This document shows, in pieces, positions 50,511 to 56,871 of a DNA stretch of 57,445 nt (positions are counted from its first letter, which is position 1; every line of letters begins with the position of its first letter). The translations under genes were made by a program, and so were the position numbers. The notes beneath the pieces were generated by a model. The model did not search any database and was not told the DNA's origin. It worked only from the letters and a program-made list of their open reading frames with translations. The stretch comes from Pseudomonadota bacterium. Its GTDB lineage: Bacteria > Pseudomonadota > Gammaproteobacteria > Steroidobacterales > JBCBZW01. Where the stretch lies: assembly GCA_039815145.1 (NCBI GenBank), contig JBCBZW010000024.1, forward strand, positions 1 to 57,445, in the 5' to 3' direction.

Positions 50511-51080
50511 CTACCACATCAGATCGTCGGGCACCGGGTGGGCCGCGTAGGCATCGTCCGTCGCTGCCGCGTCCGGCGTGGGCTCATCCGCCTTTGCGAT
50601 ACGAATGTGTTCGCCCTTGGCGTCTACCTTCTGTAGCCGTTCCGCCTGTGCGGTGGCCATCAGGTGTCCGCGACCTTCGAGCACAGCGACCACCAGGGCG
50701 CCGGTCACGAGTTCACGTTGTTGTTTCGAAGTGACCCAGATCTGCTTGATCTTCTTACCAGACTGGTAGAAGTGCTTGATGTCACCTTCCGGGTCGTTCA
50801 GTCGCTGCTCGTTGATGATGGCGCGTAGCTGGCCGAGGATGGCCTTGCGCTCGCGCTCCACGTTGCGCGCCTGGTTGAGTTCGCGATCACGCAGTTGACG
50901 AGCGGAGGAGGCAGCCTTGGCAGCGCGCGTGGCTTCGCTGTCCGGCGCCTTGGCAGCGCGTTCCGCCTTGCTCTTGCGTGGCTTGCGCTTGCGCCCCTTG
51001 GCGGCGTTTTGCTTCGACTTGCGAAGTTGATCTTCCGAGACCAATCCGGACTGCAGCAGCTGATCCTGCAGACTACCCAT
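50511..51080 (-). CDS. DUF2058 (YaiL-like) protein
   Basis: The 189-residue protein is highly charged. The N-terminus SLQDQLLQSGLVSEDQLRK is a conserved opening, followed by a lysine/arginine-rich stretch (KGRKRKPRKSKAERAAKA) and a C-terminal domain with IIN then YQSGKKIKQIWVTSKQQREL. These match YaiL/DUF2058, a conserved nucleoprotein-like family without known activity. It converges with the hydrolase gene, 3 bp between stops. Confidence 0.94.
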   Translation of the reverse strand: MGSLQDQLLQSGLVSEDQLRKSKQNAAKGRKRKPRKSKAERAAKAPDSEATRAAKAASSARQLRDRELNQARNVERERKAILGQLRAIINEQRLNDPEGDIKHFYQSGKKIKQIWVTSKQQRELVTGALVVAVLEGRGHLMATAQAERLQKVDAKGEHIRIAKADEPTPDAAATDDAYAAHPVPDDLMW

Positions 51081-51229: not shown

Positions 51230-52405
51230 CTAGCCCTGGAGCAGCCCTGCGCGGTGTGCCCACCACAGAGCACCGCCGATCACGCCAGCACCTAGCGCTA
51301 CCGCTAGCACGATCGATGGCCAGTGCCAGGGTCGCTCGCCAACGACGCGCCCGGTGCGGGCGTTGACGGCAAGGCGAAAGCGCTTCGATCGGTACTCGTA
51401 GCTTGCCGTCCAGACCGGCAGCAGCAGGTGCTTGAAAGTGGTGTCGAAATGCTCGGTCTGCACCGAATGGACGCGCTGGCGATCGCCGCCGATGTCGCGC
51501 AGGACATCGCGTCGGATGATCCCGCCCATGATGCCCCGGGCCACCTCGAAGCCCTGGTCAAGGCTGACCTCGTACACCTCGCTGCGAAAGCCACTCAGGT
51601 AGCGCTCATCGTAGGGCACCAGGGCGGCGAGATCCCAGGGCGCGAGCTTGTCGGTCAGGGTACGGGGCAGGGACTTCGATGCGCCCACCAGCACGTCGTC
51701 GAAGCGGCGCGCGACGGTGCCGCTCACGCGCCGCCAGCGCACCCGCGCTTCTCGCCGATTCACGGTGACCGTGCGCCCGTTGCGCACCGTGGTCACCGGC
51801 ACGTTCACGTAGTAGACGGTGCCGCGTTCGCCCGTGTAGCTACTGCGCGTGCGCGAATCGTAGGTCCAGTAGGGGAGGTACACGCCGTGCAAACCGCCGA
51901 CCCGCCCGTAGCGGCGCAGCTTCGGCGGCGCGAAGATGAGTTTGCCCAGCCACTTGGAAACCCCGTCCCGCGCGCCTTGCTCGTCGACGTCGAAGGGGAG
52001 GAGGGACTTCGGATGGATCCGCGTCGGACTATCGGGATCCTCGAGGGCGAGCTGATTGACGACGATGGGAGTGGCGCAGAACGGGCACTCCCCGGCGTGT
52101 TGCTTGGGGTCGAATTGAAACTGCGCGGCACAGCTCGGACATCGTGTGGCCGTGGGGGACACCGGCCCCGCCTGCGCCAAGCGGTCTAGCGCCTCGCGCA
52201 GGGGATACTCACGGATCTGCGCCGACGCCCGTTCGGGGATCGGCGTCTCATGGCCGCAGAACGCGCACTCGAGCGTGCGCGTGCCCGGTTGGAAGGTCTG
52301 CAGCGCACCGCAGCCGTCGCAAGCGAAGGCGCGTTCGTTGGCCTGGTGGCGCGGCTTGGGGGGCGCCTCCGGCGCCTGCGCAGGCGCCGCGTCTTGCTCG
52401 TTCAA
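51230..52405 (-). CDS. Membrane-anchored tandem zinc-ribbon protein
   Basis: The protein has about 391 residues. Two zinc ribbons occupy the first 125: CDGC with CAFC, then CPSC with CPFC. A central region of beta-rich, YLPYWTYDSRTRSSYTGERG-type sequence follows, and one membrane helix is near the C-terminus (IVLAVALGAGVIGGALWW). The only in-frame start is TTG at 52405, with no strong ribosome site, so the start is tentative. Proteins of this layout are found next to SPFH genes and may be anchoring partners. It follows the SPFH gene by 31 bp. Confidence 0.85.
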   Translation of the reverse strand: MNEQDAAPAQAPEAPPKPRHQANERAFACDGCGALQTFQPGTRTLECAFCGHETPIPERASAQIREYPLREALDRLAQAGPVSPTATRCPSCAAQFQFDPKQHAGECPFCATPIVVNQLALEDPDSPTRIHPKSLLPFDVDEQGARDGVSKWLGKLIFAPPKLRRYGRVGGLHGVYLPYWTYDSRTRSSYTGERGTVYYVNVPVTTVRNGRTVTVNRREARVRWRRVSGTVARRFDDVLVGASKSLPRTLTDKLAPWDLAALVPYDERYLSGFRSEVYEVSLDQGFEVARGIMGGIIRRDVLRDIGGDRQRVHSVQTEHFDTTFKHLLLPVWTASYEYRSKRFRLAVNARTGRVVGERPWHWPSIVLAVALGAGVIGGALWWAHRAGLLQG

Positions 52406-52436
52406 CGCGGTGGGGTCGACCGGCGCCTATCGCCCC

Positions 52437-53558
52437 TCACTGGGGTGGGAGCGGCGGCGGCATCTGGGCGAACATCTCGGCGAGCTCCGCCACCCCTTGG
52501 GCTTCCTGCCATTCCTTCAAGCCAGGCCGCCAGGCCAGCGAGTCCCGGGAGAGCTCCCCCGACTGGATCTTCGTGCGCACCTCGGTCTTGGTGAAGGGGC
52601 CGGTTTGATGGCCATTGACCGCCAGGTAGTAGCGCGCTTCGGTGGGCAGCGGCGGCGGCGTGTCGCCGGCAGCGCCGGCAGCCGGGGCGTTGCCCTTGCC
52701 GCCCGTGCTCAGGGTCTCCCCCAGCTTTGAAGCCATCGCAAAGCCCATGCCTAAGCCGACCCCGTCGCCCGCGCCGCCACCTGGGTTGGCGGCCGCCACG
52801 GTCATCGCTTCGGCGGCTTGGAAGGTGGCGTAGTCCTCGAGGTTGCCGATGATGCCCATGCTGGTGCGCTTGTCGAGCGCCTTCTCCACGGCGTCGGGCA
52901 GGGAGATGTTCTCCACCAGCAGCGTGGGAAGGGCCAGGCCGTACTCCGCAAACTCCTTCCCGATCCACTTGCTGATGAAATCACCGAGCTTGTCGTAGTT
53001 GGCGGCGAGGTCGAGGACCGGGATGCCCGAGTCGCCAAGGATCGTGCTGAAGCGCGAGACGATGAGATTGCGTAGCTGGTTGGTGATCTCATCGGTGGTG
53101 AAACGCCCGTCCGTGCCGACCACTTCGCGCAGGAAGACCGAAGGGTCCTCGATGCGGATCGTGTAGGTGCCGTAGGCACGAAGGCGTACGGGACCGAACT
53201 CACGATCGCGCAGCATGATCGGGTTCTTGGTGCCCCACTTCAGATCGGTGAACTGGCGCGTGCTGAAGAAGTAGACCTCGGCCTTGAAGGGGCTCTCGAA
53301 GCCGTGCGGCCAGCTCATGATCGTGGTCATGATGGGCATGTTGCTGGTTTCCAGCTTGTACAAGCCCGGCTGGTAGACGTCGGCGAGGCGGCCCTCGTTG
53401 ACCAGCACGGCCACCTGTCCCTCGCGCACGGTCAGCATGGCGCCGTACTTGATCTCGTTGCCGTAGCGCTCGAAGCGGTGGACTAGGGTGTCCTGCGAGT
53501 CGTCGGTCCACTCGATGACGTCGACGAATTCGCCGCGGATGCGATCCCAAAAGCTCAT
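52437..53558 (-). CDS. SPFH-domain protein with C-terminal GYF_2 domain
   Basis: The 373-residue protein has an SPFH/virion-core-like N-terminal part (residues about 30-240: REGQVAVLVNEGRLADVYQPG, YFFSTRQFTDLKWGTKNPI, FGPVRLRAYGTYTIRIEDP, then VENISLPDAVEKALDK), a flexible Gly/Ala linker and a GYF_2 domain at about 310-365 (YLAVNGHQTGPFTKTEVR, SLAWRPGLKEWQ). The SPFH fold forms membrane-associated rings. Its ATG overlaps the telA stop by 4 bp (ATGA). It is likely partnered with the adjacent zinc-ribbon, TelA and XpaC proteins. Confidence 0.9.
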   Translation of the reverse strand: MSFWDRIRGEFVDVIEWTDDSQDTLVHRFERYGNEIKYGAMLTVREGQVAVLVNEGRLADVYQPGLYKLETSNMPIMTTIMSWPHGFESPFKAEVYFFSTRQFTDLKWGTKNPIMLRDREFGPVRLRAYGTYTIRIEDPSVFLREVVGTDGRFTTDEITNQLRNLIVSRFSTILGDSGIPVLDLAANYDKLGDFISKWIGKEFAEYGLALPTLLVENISLPDAVEKALDKRTSMGIIGNLEDYATFQAAEAMTVAAANPGGGAGDGVGLGMGFAMASKLGETLSTGGKGNAPAAGAAGDTPPPLPTEARYYLAVNGHQTGPFTKTEVRTKIQSGELSRDSLAWRPGLKEWQEAQGVAELAEMFAQMPPPLPPQ

Positions 53559-54643
53559 GATTCACTGTTCTCCGTCTGCTCGCGGCCCGCCGCGTTGGTG
53601 AGAGCTTCTCTTAGCTGCGCTTCTGCTGTCTGCAGTTCTTCGCGCGCAGCGACTCGTGCCTGGCGCCCCTCCTCGGCAATCGCGAGGCTCTCCTCGATGG
53701 TCTCGATGAGGGTCTGGTTGGCCGCCTTTACCGAGGCGACATCCAGGGCCCCGCGTTCGATCGCTCGCCGGCTGTCCGCATTGGCTACCTTGAGGTCGCG
53801 TGCGTTGGCCTCGAGCATCTCGTTGGTAAGGTCGCTCGCCGCCTCCACCGAGCGCGTCGCCTGGCCGGAGCGGTAGACGGCCACGGCGGTCGCCAGCTGC
53901 TGGCGCCACAATGGCACGGTGTTGGTGAGCACCGAGTTGATGCGGTTCACCAATCCCTTGTTGTTCTCCTGCACCAGGCGGATGCCGGGCAGGCTCTGCA
54001 TGGTTACCTGGCGCGTGAGGCGCAGGTCGTGCAGGCGGCGCTCGAGGTCGTCACGCGAGGCGCGCATGTCGCGCAGCGCCTGCGCATCGAGCACGTCACC
54101 GCTGCTGTCGGCCTTCTCCTGCAGCGCGGGCAAGGTTTCCGTGTCGGCCTGGGCCAGGCGCTCCTCGCCGACGGCGATGTAGCCGTCGAGGGCGTGGAAG
54201 CACTCGAGGCTTCCCTGGTAGAGGCGATCCAGGCGTGTGAGGTCTGTGAGCAGGGTGGTCTTGTGTTGCTCCAGGCGATCGGTGATGGCGTCGATCTGTC
54301 CGCGCACGCTCTCGTAGCGCTGCAGGAACTTCGCCAGGGGGCGCGATGCGGAGAACAACCAGGAGAGTAGTCCTCGTCGCTTGCCCTGGGCGGCGAGCGC
54401 GTCGACGTCGAACCCGCGCAAGGTGGCGATCACATCGTTGAGCGCTTCGCCCGCCTGACCGACGTCCTGGTTCTTCACCCCATCGAGGATCTGATCGGTC
54501 ACCCCGGCCAGCTCCTGTTGCGCGCTGGCGCCGAAGGTCATGATGGACTGCGCGTCCGCCAGGTCCAGGCGTGCGCTGAGGGCGGCGCGGTCGATCTCTG
54601 CAACCTCGTGATCTGGTTCGGGGGGATTTGATGGTGATGACAT
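53555..54643 (-). CDS. telA: TelA family toxic-anion resistance protein
   Basis: The 362-residue all-helical protein carries the TelA/KlaA pattern: KFLQRYESVRGQIDAITDRL, MRASRDDLERRLHDLRLTRQ, MQSLPGIRLVQENNKGLVNRI, and AVYRSGQATRSVEAASDLTN. TelA is linked to resistance to tellurite and other toxic anions and to membrane-active peptides; the mechanism is unknown. It is cytosolic with long helices. It is co-transcribed with an XpaC gene upstream and overlaps the SPFH gene downstream. Confidence 0.95.
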   Translation of the reverse strand: MSSPSNPPEPDHEVAEIDRAALSARLDLADAQSIMTFGASAQQELAGVTDQILDGVKNQDVGQAGEALNDVIATLRGFDVDALAAQGKRRGLLSWLFSASRPLAKFLQRYESVRGQIDAITDRLEQHKTTLLTDLTRLDRLYQGSLECFHALDGYIAVGEERLAQADTETLPALQEKADSSGDVLDAQALRDMRASRDDLERRLHDLRLTRQVTMQSLPGIRLVQENNKGLVNRINSVLTNTVPLWRQQLATAVAVYRSGQATRSVEAASDLTNEMLEANARDLKVANADSRRAIERGALDVASVKAANQTLIETIEESLAIAEEGRQARVAAREELQTAEAQLREALTNAAGREQTENSES

Positions 54644-54674
54644 GGGCTGATCCTCGCGTAGTCAGGGCGCTTAC

Positions 54675-55457
54675 CTAGCTGATGCCCTCGAGTTCCAGAC
54701 GACGCTTGAGCACCTCGATTTGCACATCGAGATCCAGCACGTCGTTGGCGAGCAGCCGCTCACGCTGTTCTGCGAACACGCGGGCGATCGTGTCCAGCAC
54801 CTCGGTGAAGTTCTCCTCCAGCGCCGTGACGCCGTGTTGGAGCGCGGTGTTCTCGTAGCGCTCGCAAACCTGCAACGCGCCCTCGAGGTAGACGGACAGG
54901 AAGCGCCGGGCCTTGCTGACATCGCCTGGATCCGCTTCCAGCAAGCCCAGAATCTGGCGGGCTTCGCCGACGATCTGGTTCAAGCGTTCGGCCAGGGGAA
55001 GCTGACGCAAGCGCTTGGCGAGGGCGTCCAAGCGTTCGATCTGCGCCCGGGCCTGCGCCAGCTGTTGGCGCACGGCCTTGGGCGCCGTGCTGTCAGCGGC
55101 GCCCGTCGTCTCATGAGGCCACCAGGCGAGCCAGGCGCCCACCAGGGTCAGGCCGGCGATCAGGACCGAGAACCCGGTGCTGTGGCCGATAAGGAAGCGA
55201 TCACACACGGCACACCCCAAGGCCAAGGCGCCGCTTCCCATCCAGCGCAGGCGGCGCGCACTGTCCGGCGCCTCCAGCAGCGTTTGCGGTCGCAGGCCCC
55301 GGCGCACGAGCCATACGGCCGCGCCGATCAGGCCCAGGGTGGCAAGCTCCGCCAGGACGTGGTCCGTTCGGCCGCGCGCCAAGGACAGGACGGTGGCGGG
55401 CAGCAGCGGGAGGGCGAGGGGTAACAGGAGATACCCGCGCAGATCGACGCGCGGCAT
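54675..55457 (-). CDS. XpaC-like membrane protein
   Basis: The product has about 260 residues. Three or four membrane helices lie in the first 110 (LLLPLALPLLPATVLSLARG, HVLAELATLGLIGAAVWLV, FSVLIAGLTLVGAWLAWW), followed by a cytosolic coiled-coil-like half (ARAQIERLDALAKRLRQLP, FLSVYLEGALQVCERYENTA). XpaC (once described from 5-bromo-4-chloroindolyl phosphate hydrolysis) is commonly adjacent to telA. An in-frame GTG at 55493 is an alternative start; the ATG at 55457 follows an AGG. Confidence 0.85.
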   Translation of the reverse strand: MPRVDLRGYLLLPLALPLLPATVLSLARGRTDHVLAELATLGLIGAAVWLVRRGLRPQTLLEAPDSARRLRWMGSGALALGCAVCDRFLIGHSTGFSVLIAGLTLVGAWLAWWPHETTGAADSTAPKAVRQQLAQARAQIERLDALAKRLRQLPLAERLNQIVGEARQILGLLEADPGDVSKARRFLSVYLEGALQVCERYENTALQHGVTALEENFTEVLDTIARVFAEQRERLLANDVLDLDVQIEVLKRRLELEGIS

Positions 55458-55839
55458 GGCGCCGTGCCTAGCAGATCGATAGATCTCAGGCACCGGCAGC
55501 GCTCCACAGGCCCCCGCAGGTGGTCAGGCCCACCACGAGCATCAGGATCATGCCCCCGACTATGCGTCGCAGGACGAGACCCGCCGATGGCGGGCTCGGG
55601 AGCTTCGGCCCCACCGCGGGAGAGGGCGGCGAGGTGGAGGTGCGCGGTTGGCGGTCGATGTTGGCGCTCCCGACAGGCGGTTCAGGCCCCTCAGTATACG
55701 GCCTTTGCTGGGCGGTCTCCGGCCGTCGCCGCCGCGGCGCATCAGGGCCCAGCGGAAAACGTTGCGGGGCGATTCAAACGCTTGCGCGCCCCGTCACATC
55801 CAAGGCTCGACGTTATCCCCCAGGGAGGAGACCCAGACA
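55458..55839. other. Intergenic region before the DUF4097 gene
   Basis: These 382 bp lie between the xpaC-like gene and the DUF4097 gene, which are divergent. On the minus strand a frame from 55768 to 55486 without stops contains a proline-rich stretch then a membrane helix, annotated separately. A GTATAC block at 55693-55698 may be part of a promoter. The plus side has a GGGAGGAG ribosome site just before 55840. Nothing else is assigned. Confidence 0.5.
55486..55614 (-). CDS. Possible small membrane protein upstream of xpaC
   Basis: From a GTG at 55614 the frame reads VGPKLPSPPSAGLVLRR, then a membrane helix (IVGGMILMLVVGLTTCGGLW) and ends SAAGA, 42 residues. The frame extends further upstream, proline-rich, with no better start codon and no ribosome site. 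Its stop lies inside the alternative xpaC GTG start, so translational coupling is conceivable. The helix is the only support. Confidence 0.3.
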   Translation of the reverse strand: MGPKLPSPPSAGLVLRRIVGGMILMLVVGLTTCGGLWSAAGA

Positions 55840-56871
55840 ATGCTCAACTTCGCTAACTCGCAGGCGCAGCGGGCGCCCGCATCCATCGGCGCCTTCGCCG
55901 TCCTCGCATTGGCGCTGGCGGTGCCTGGCGCGGCCCACGCGGATGTCATCGAGCGCAGCTTCGATGTCGGTTCGACGGGCCGCTTGGTGCTCGATTCCGA
56001 CGTCGGCGCCGTGGAGGTGGAATCCAACAACTCAGGTCGCGTGGAGGTTCGCGTCGAGCGCGATGGCCGTGACGCCGACCGTTTCGAAGTGGAGTTCGAC
56101 CAGCGCGGCAGCGAAGTCCGCGTGCGTGGCGAACTGCCCGGCCGACGCAACTGGAACAATCGTGACCTCGAGATCGAGTTCCGCGTGTCGGTGCCGCGGG
56201 GCTTCGAGATCGAGGTCAACACCTCCGGTGGCAGCATCGAGGTGGACGACCTGGACGGTAACGTCGACGTCAACACGGCGGGAGGTTTCATCCGCCTGGC
56301 CAACATGGGGGGTGAGGTCAACGCCCGTACGGCAGGCGGTAGCATCGACCTGGAGGAATCGCGCGGAAACGCCCGACTCAATACGGCAGGCGGCTCCATC
56401 AGCGTTCGCCGTGCGGGGGGCGAGGTGGAAGCGAAGACCGCCGGTGGTTCGATCAGCATCGATGATGCGGGCGGCTCCGTGAACGCGCGCACCGCGGGTG
56501 GCTCGATTCGCATCGGGGCCAGCGGGGGGGATGTCGTTGCCCACACCGCTGGCGGCAGCGTGAGCGTGGACGATGTGTACGGTTCCGTGGACGCCTCAAC
56601 CAACGGCGGCAGCATCAATGCGCGGATTCGCTCGCAACCGTCCGGCAACAGCGAGCTGCGTACCCATGGCGGTAGCGTGACGGTCAGTCTGGCCCCGGGC
56701 ATTGCCATGGACATCGATGCGTACAGCAGCAACTCCCGCGTCAGCAGCGACTTCGATTTCCCCGCCTCCGCCTGGGACGACGATCGCGCTGAGCTGCGCG
56801 CGGCGCTGAACGGCGGCGGACCGGAGCTCTCCATTCGCGCCAGCCACCGCATTCGCATCAAGCGCGATTAG
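55840..56871 (+). CDS. Secreted DUF4097 beta-helix repeat protein
   Basis: The protein has about 343 residues. A signal peptide (residues about 1-35, SIGAFAVLALALAVPGAAHA) is followed by strands (VIERSFDVGSTGRLVLDSDV) typical of DUF4097, and then eight 18-residue repeats built on the pattern V-x-A-x-TAGGSI-x-V-x2-x2-GG. Each repeat should be one turn of a right-handed beta-helix. The C-terminus (SLAPGIAMDIDAYSS, PELSIRASHRIRIKRD) caps it. It is expected in the periplasm or on the surface; the function is unknown. The ATG at 55840 follows GGGAGGAG. Confidence 0.9.
   Translation: MLNFANSQAQRAPASIGAFAVLALALAVPGAAHADVIERSFDVGSTGRLVLDSDVGAVEVESNNSGRVEVRVERDGRDADRFEVEFDQRGSEVRVRGELPGRRNWNNRDLEIEFRVSVPRGFEIEVNTSGGSIEVDDLDGNVDVNTAGGFIRLANMGGEVNARTAGGSIDLEESRGNARLNTAGGSISVRRAGGEVEAKTAGGSISIDDAGGSVNARTAGGSIRIGASGGDVVAHTAGGSVSVDDVYGSVDASTNGGSINARIRSQPSGNSELRTHGGSVTVSLAPGIAMDIDAYSSNSRVSSDFDFPASAWDDDRAELRAALNGGGPELSIRASHRIRIKRD
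56209..56640 (+). repeat. Eight tandem 54-bp coding repeats
   Basis: Units begin at 56209, 56263, 56317, 56371, 56425, 56479, 56533 and 56587. The asparagine- or arginine-like codon before T-A/S-G-G recurs at exact 54-base spacing (checked at 56218, 56272, 56326 and 56380). The DNA is similar but not identical between units, so the array is old or under selection. Each unit encodes an 18-residue turn. Confidence 0.9.

Follow-up and report, generated by a model that had tools for sequence, protein, structure and literature searches.

A conserved bacterial operon joining xpaC-telA to an SPFH/zinc-ribbon gene pair, with a predicted small membrane protein encoded before xpaC

The window analyzed here is the whole 57,445-nucleotide stretch of contig JBCBZW010000024.1 (assembly GCA_039815145.1, Gammaproteobacteria). 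Its minus strand carries, in order of transcription, a small open reading frame (ORF), xpaC, telA, the gene of an SPFH protein with a GYF domain (SPFH-GYF), and the gene of a zinc-ribbon protein with a transmembrane (TM) helix (zinc-ribbon-TM). The small ORF (55486–55614) would encode, with the GTG at 55614 taken as its start codon, a 42-residue membrane protein with one helix at about residues 18–36, and shares eight bases with the start of xpaC. The xpaC gene (54675–55493) begins with the GTG at 55493, favored by the family alignment, and its product belongs to the Halogen_Hydrol family (PF10112, E 1.4e-27); telA (53555–54643, ATG start) encodes a TelA family protein (PF05816, E 1.6e-102). 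SPFH-GYF (52437–53558, ATG start) has a Band_7_1 domain at residues 26–236 (PF13421, E 6.8e-100) and a GYF_2 domain at residues 310–359 (PF14237, E 3.6e-16), while zinc-ribbon-TM (51230–52405, TTG start) is a YdjG-like protein in which two zinc ribbons and a conserved middle domain precede a C-terminal TM helix at residues 365–383. The telA and SPFH-GYF genes overlap by four bases (ATGA); the gaps between xpaC and telA and between the SPFH and zinc-ribbon genes are 31 bases each. This tight packing of four minus-strand genes had been described in the original prediction, made before any database search, and every coordinate was verified.

XpaC has N-terminal hydrophobic segments, with three 19-residue hydropathy peaks, followed by a soluble C-terminal part; TelA and SPFH-GYF show no TM peak. 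All eight zinc-ribbon cysteines (C29, C32, C47, C50 and C89, C92, C107, C110) are invariant in 11 sequences, and a Pfam scan of this protein gives nothing above the cut-off. Among 83 proteins examined, 78 have a GYF core recognized by a regular expression, and in 75 of these proline-rich stretches flank it on both sides; of the remaining five, three are proline-flanked by eye and two have a helix-turn-helix (HTH) domain instead. GYF domains bind proline-rich ligands. Searched by sequence against solved structures, the GYF part matches 7z3c, a gliding-motility protein (E 1.6e-7); a cellodextrin phosphorylase, which comes next for SPFH-GYF (E 0.0045), is taken for chance, and XpaC, TelA, and the zinc-ribbon protein give nothing convincing. 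In PADLOC, none of the four proteins has an anti-phage defense match.

The operon made up of the four genes is conserved in bacteria and joins two units that in Bacillus are separate sigmaW operons, xpaC-telA and the SPFH/zinc-ribbon pair (YdjI/YdjG). In a class sample of 229 genomes (the window's included), the zinc-ribbon protein is present in 12, the window's among them, and in 8 of the 11 other loci xpaC, telA, and the SPFH and zinc-ribbon genes follow each other on one strand. One locus (L026) has only the SPFH and zinc-ribbon genes, and two (L022, L023) have the zinc-ribbon gene alone, with xpaC-telA-SPFH on another contig of both genomes, so the pieces co-occur even when unlinked. Scanning named genomes with a profile gave matches in at least 591 stretches, at least 589 of them coding a relative, and the best 80 were kept; together with the 11 class loci, they give 91 loci, mainly from Gammaproteobacteria and Rhodobacteraceae. 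All four genes are seen in 68 of the 91, many others ending at a contig edge; where the sequence extends 5 kb or more upstream of the zinc-ribbon gene (70 loci), all four lie on one strand in 64. Random association in other genomes, named by the original prediction as its refutation, was looked for and not seen.

The same holds for the pairwise linkage within the 229 class genomes. XpaC is encoded directly upstream of TelA in all 18 cases of an above-cut-off XpaC match, and a strong Band_7_1 match (>100 bits) adjoins TelA in 12 of 14, the exceptions being G224 and G201; weak Band_7_1 matches (<29 bits), presumably to different SPFH proteins, are excluded from the 14. Genomes with the zinc-ribbon protein have strong Band_7_1 in 12/12 and TelA in 11/12 cases (Fisher p 3e-18 and 9e-12, respectively, both overstated as the genomes are related). 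No description of the joined operon turned up in the open-licence literature searched, which included searches for TelA or XpaC mentioned together with SPFH, and a survey of SPFH proteins in P. aeruginosa does not mention TelA, GYF, or YdjI; a comparative-genomics paper on Ter/TelA systems may touch on the joined operon.

The SPFH/zinc-ribbon pair also occurs with other partners. In Enterococcus, the profiles of the window families find the two genes adjoining an annotated TPM gene, and the window zinc-ribbon protein matches the Enterococcus protein encoded between SPFH and TPM (tblastn E 7e-15, profile E 1.4e-47). The Comamonas pair has an HTH-tailed SPFH protein, and pairs stand alone on Vibrio and Tsukamurella plasmids; the one on the Vibrio coralliilyticus plasmid (L108) has genes for a TIR-domain protein and a TRAFs-binding-domain protein in its vicinity. 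In most of the Rhodobacteraceae loci listed, telA and SPFH are about 1 kb apart, and the frames inspected in this interval encode a DUF2927 putative lipoprotein (one was Pfam-scanned), e.g., HEELAQGLGL...RPSIFND at L044:7888-8826 and similar loci; the word DUF2927 has no occurrence in the open-licence literature searched.

The small ORF stands out in the window and recurs in relatives. Among 329 window ORFs of 30–80 residues, six have a 19-residue hydropathy mean of at least 1.6, and the 42-residue ORF is the highest of all. It scores 15.3 bits against a 26-sequence profile of relatives built without it, a value reached by none of 736 control upstream regions (best 9.7); an earlier 13-sequence profile gave only 8.9 bits (E 0.043). 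No Shine-Dalgarno sequence is visible before its GTG, hence, its exact start is unsure. Of 68 relatives with enough upstream sequence, 54 have a hydrophobic ORF of 25–90 residues ending at −60 to +20 of an xpaC start. Under one uniform rule, such an ORF precedes xpaC in 54/67 cases, telA in 1/68, SPFH in 0/76, the zinc-ribbon gene in 1/85, and other long frames in 11/524. Two small profiles (E <0.1) place the peptide before xpaC in 66 of the 68 relatives, a count partly by construction, as the profile seeds come from the same loci; missed are L025, with another hydrophobic ORF at that spot, and L097.

The 66 peptides have 23–59 residues (median 29) and mostly start with ATG (58); a Shine-Dalgarno-like four-mer is found at −18 to −4 in 51 of them, vs. 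6 of 66 at the control distance. The pattern is MPKxLQRVIGFFILLATVGMxSCQAL in Gammaproteobacteria and MSGTGLQKLAYAALLVLLFGVTTGWLGGL in Rhodobacteraceae. At L045, L053, L061, L067, L070, L084, and L101 the peptide frame continues upstream into a second hydrophobic stretch, and the frames suggest a two-helix form of some Rhodobacteraceae peptides. For 141 same-length pairs with at least 55% identity, the nonsynonymous (pN) and synonymous (pS) differences are 0.22 and 0.62, i.e., a ratio of 0.35, vs. 1.21 and 1.97 in the shifted frames; for all 259 same-length pairs outside the gammaproteobacterial set the ratio is 0.52 (shifted frames 1.02 and 1.76), the pairs not being independent. The peptides of L072 and L090 differ by 12 synonymous changes and no others. 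This pattern of substitutions indicates purifying selection at the protein level. Among the 35 peptides scanned, each Pfam or NCBIfam family matches two at most. What had been listed as a possible 42-residue membrane ORF ending inside the alternative xpaC start is, judged by the profile score and its recurrence in relatives, a real gene for a very small predicted membrane protein that regularly precedes xpaC and is overlooked by the family libraries searched.

A further check comes from XpaC loci of 398 genomes of the phylum, 35 of which have XpaC. The peptide (E up to 0.064) is found in 25 of 29 XpaC loci fetched besides the window's, and in 24/24 of those with both XpaC and TelA in the stretch (window excluded); these genomes may repeat species of the named loci, L154 being the same place as L116. 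The loci with no peptide match are L151 and three with a divergent XpaC (L155–L157). Six xpaC-telA loci have no strong SPFH match in the stretch (L112–L117); the peptide is clear in four, weak in L116 (where a weak SPFH-like match follows telA), and not seen in L115. A Paracoccus plasmid carries telA-DUF2927-SPFH-zinc-ribbon without xpaC, and no such peptide is seen in the stretch inspected. Its occurrence with xpaC-telA in the former loci, and not on this plasmid, points to XpaC as the protein with which the peptide is associated. At L104:4124-4966 and at L134, a second, divergent XpaC-like gene lies upstream of xpaC-telA.

The data above show which genes the operon has and how they are arranged, that a gene for the small peptide exists, and that the zinc-ribbon/SPFH pair is of the YdjG/YdjI type. 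We favor, with a probability of roughly 0.55, a five-gene envelope-stress operon building a PspA-free scaffold on the cytoplasmic face of the inner membrane, which the operon probably protects. TelA would be anchored to the membrane by the one-helix peptide together with XpaC, as the peptide accompanies xpaC-telA rather than SPFH. In the model, TelA is a long, soluble helical bundle that carries an amphipathic patch, and it would dock on the membrane and/or XpaC. The SPFH protein would oligomerize on the cytoplasmic face, held at the membrane by the zinc-ribbon TM protein, as YdjI is by YdjG/YdjH in Bacillus, and may be cross-linked through an assumed binding of GYF to its own or its partners' proline-rich tails. 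Under membrane stress, such an assembly could stabilize the membrane or gather repair and cell-wall factors; sensitivity of telA mutants elsewhere to tellurite or nisin would then be a consequence of the membrane role. The original prediction spoke of a membrane stress-protection complex; envelope stress fits the publications on pspA-ydjGHI and xpaC-telA, while the complex and its mechanism are still inferred.

The AlphaFold model of TelA (66 sequences; predicted local distance difference test, pLDDT, 75; predicted template modeling score, pTM, 0.60) is all-helical, with long helices at residues 101–181 and 184–287. The most amphipathic 18-mer, residues 92–109, lies where the long hairpin begins and could be a membrane-docking face in this model. 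No Foldseek match is found at E ≤0.001, and the VIA matches listed are mixed helical bundles (Z ≤13.4); SmhB, AhlB, and ClyA align at Z 12.0–12.6 and root-mean-square deviation 3.9–4.3 Å over 211–228 residues, a range common for helical bundles. TelA as a relative of PspA was considered and finds no support in these searches: two AlphaFold models match generic bundles only, with no ESCRT-III/PspA chain in the 50 matches listed per search. A relationship between TelA and XpaC is likewise not detectable by hhalign (probability <1%).

Some observations weigh against the envelope-stress scaffold. The TelA model (pTM 0.60) resembles generic helical bundles only; a sigma-70 consensus scan, which leaves out stress-type promoters, finds no promoter-like site upstream of the operon; and the set is incomplete in six of the 70 loci (L022, L023, L026, L030, L032, L054), so the two halves can stand apart.

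A bolder version is tentative: as a membrane machine of three parts, the peptide, XpaC, and TelA would take the place that PspA, an ESCRT-III protein, has as partner of an SPFH scaffold of the YdjI/YdjG type, and the peptide would be an overlooked protein family. Were it true, bacteria would plug different membrane-acting cassettes into one SPFH/zinc-ribbon core: PspA-TPM, TPM alone, or peptide-XpaC-TelA with or without the DUF2927 lipoprotein. TelA and XpaC are named from tellurite and dye phenotypes, with no agreed mechanism for either, and the link to an SPFH/zinc-ribbon scaffold of a known envelope-stress type gives them a testable set of partners. As a candidate for a missing subunit, the small peptide would escape studies limited to annotated genes.

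It is doubtful that peptide-XpaC-TelA and SPFH-zinc-ribbon are two independent units sharing transcription only, with different jobs under the same stress. Such independence agrees with xpaC-telA occurring in stretches that have no strong SPFH match (L112–L115, L117), with SPFH-zinc-ribbon occurring without TelA (L026, L108–L111), and with the separate operons of B. subtilis described in passages of PMC3498285; however, strong Band_7_1 adjoins TelA in most class genomes that have it, and telA and SPFH share four bases in the window.

A dedicated operon for resistance to tellurite or toxic anions, with TelA and XpaC handling or exporting the anion and SPFH and the zinc-ribbon protein in support, is unlikely. 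The TelA family name points that way, as do telA-like genes on many plasmids (597 matching records, 550 called conjugative); however, none of the four proteins matches a transporter or reductase domain. Listeria telA mutants, as a passage of the review PMC11765107 has it, are about four-fold more sensitive to nisin and two-fold to tellurite, i.e., a modest tellurite effect exceeded by the nisin effect. Furthermore, the xpaC-telA dyad belongs to the Bacillus sigmaW regulon, with xpaC-yaaN in its core and pspA-ydjGHI secondary (PMC3498285, in part); garvicin KS mildly induces lmo1966-1967 (XpaC, TelA) of Listeria, which PMC12791056 lists under LiaRS regulation; and an XpaC-like gene and telA1 of Lactococcus appear as rows in the induced-gene table of a membrane-protein overproduction study (PMC3139573, in part). 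Least probable is that the small ORF, which in the window runs into the xpaC start and in many relatives is close to it, is a leader peptide controlling xpaC translation and not a working membrane protein, since the recurring basic N-terminus and single hydrophobic helix, the in-frame pN/pS below the 1.0–2.0 of shifted frames, and the longer two-helix frames of some Rhodobacteraceae argue for selection on the protein.

Genes flanking the operon in the window are a divergent plus-strand gene at 55834–56871, whose DUF4097 (toastrack) product probably has a signal peptide, judging by eye, and a DUF2058 gene at 50511–51080, after the module. Toastrack is given as a Psp partner domain in part of PMC11237479. 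Neither neighbor is conserved in the loci examined (short flanks only for L128–L157), except for a DUF2058-like gene beside xpaC-telA at L112:1080-1619, possibly by chance.

Among known systems, the operon resembles pspA-ydjGHI of Bacillus in having a YdjI-type Band-7 gene beside the gene of a YdjG-type two-zinc-ribbon membrane protein, YdjG and YdjI being known here from published descriptions as a zinc-ribbon and a band-7 protein, respectively (PMC9239133, in part); PF13421, the family of the window SPFH protein, is also matched in the B. subtilis control genome. According to passages of PMC8581546, YdjG and YdjH are required for recruitment of YdjI and PspA to the B. subtilis membrane; PMC11237479 describes the ydj operon with ZnR and TPM, and its main text names neither TelA nor XpaC. 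Unlike pspA-ydjGHI, the window SPFH protein ends in GYF and proline tails, the Bacillus protein being described with a zinc ribbon, and the window operon adds xpaC-telA and the small peptide. No PspA was found in it, the PF04012 matches of this genome being confined to contigs C13 and C153 (the window is C24); nor was TPM (YdjH), with no additional gene lying among those listed. In single-sequence phmmer searches of 112 loci, two PspA queries match only the PspA loci L122 and L123, and the Enterococcus TPM only itself. These PspA loci of the same genome are on separate contigs, with other partners and no match to the four module profiles; by eye, the L122 ORFs are pspF-pspA-pspBC-like, and L123 (G000:C153) has PspA beside NfeD-type membrane-protein-like and flotillin-like ORFs. 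KlaA/TelA of plasmids belongs to the same TelA family as the window telA product and is more distant, the plasmid proteins being 23–39% identical over the matched part, a Paracoccus one aside (40 of the 597 records listed). Finally, as in the xpaC-yaaN (telA) dyad of Bacillota, which is described as stress-induced in the parts of the publications cited above, the PF10112 gene directly precedes the PF05816 gene; unlike that dyad, xpaC-telA of the window is joined with the SPFH and zinc-ribbon genes.

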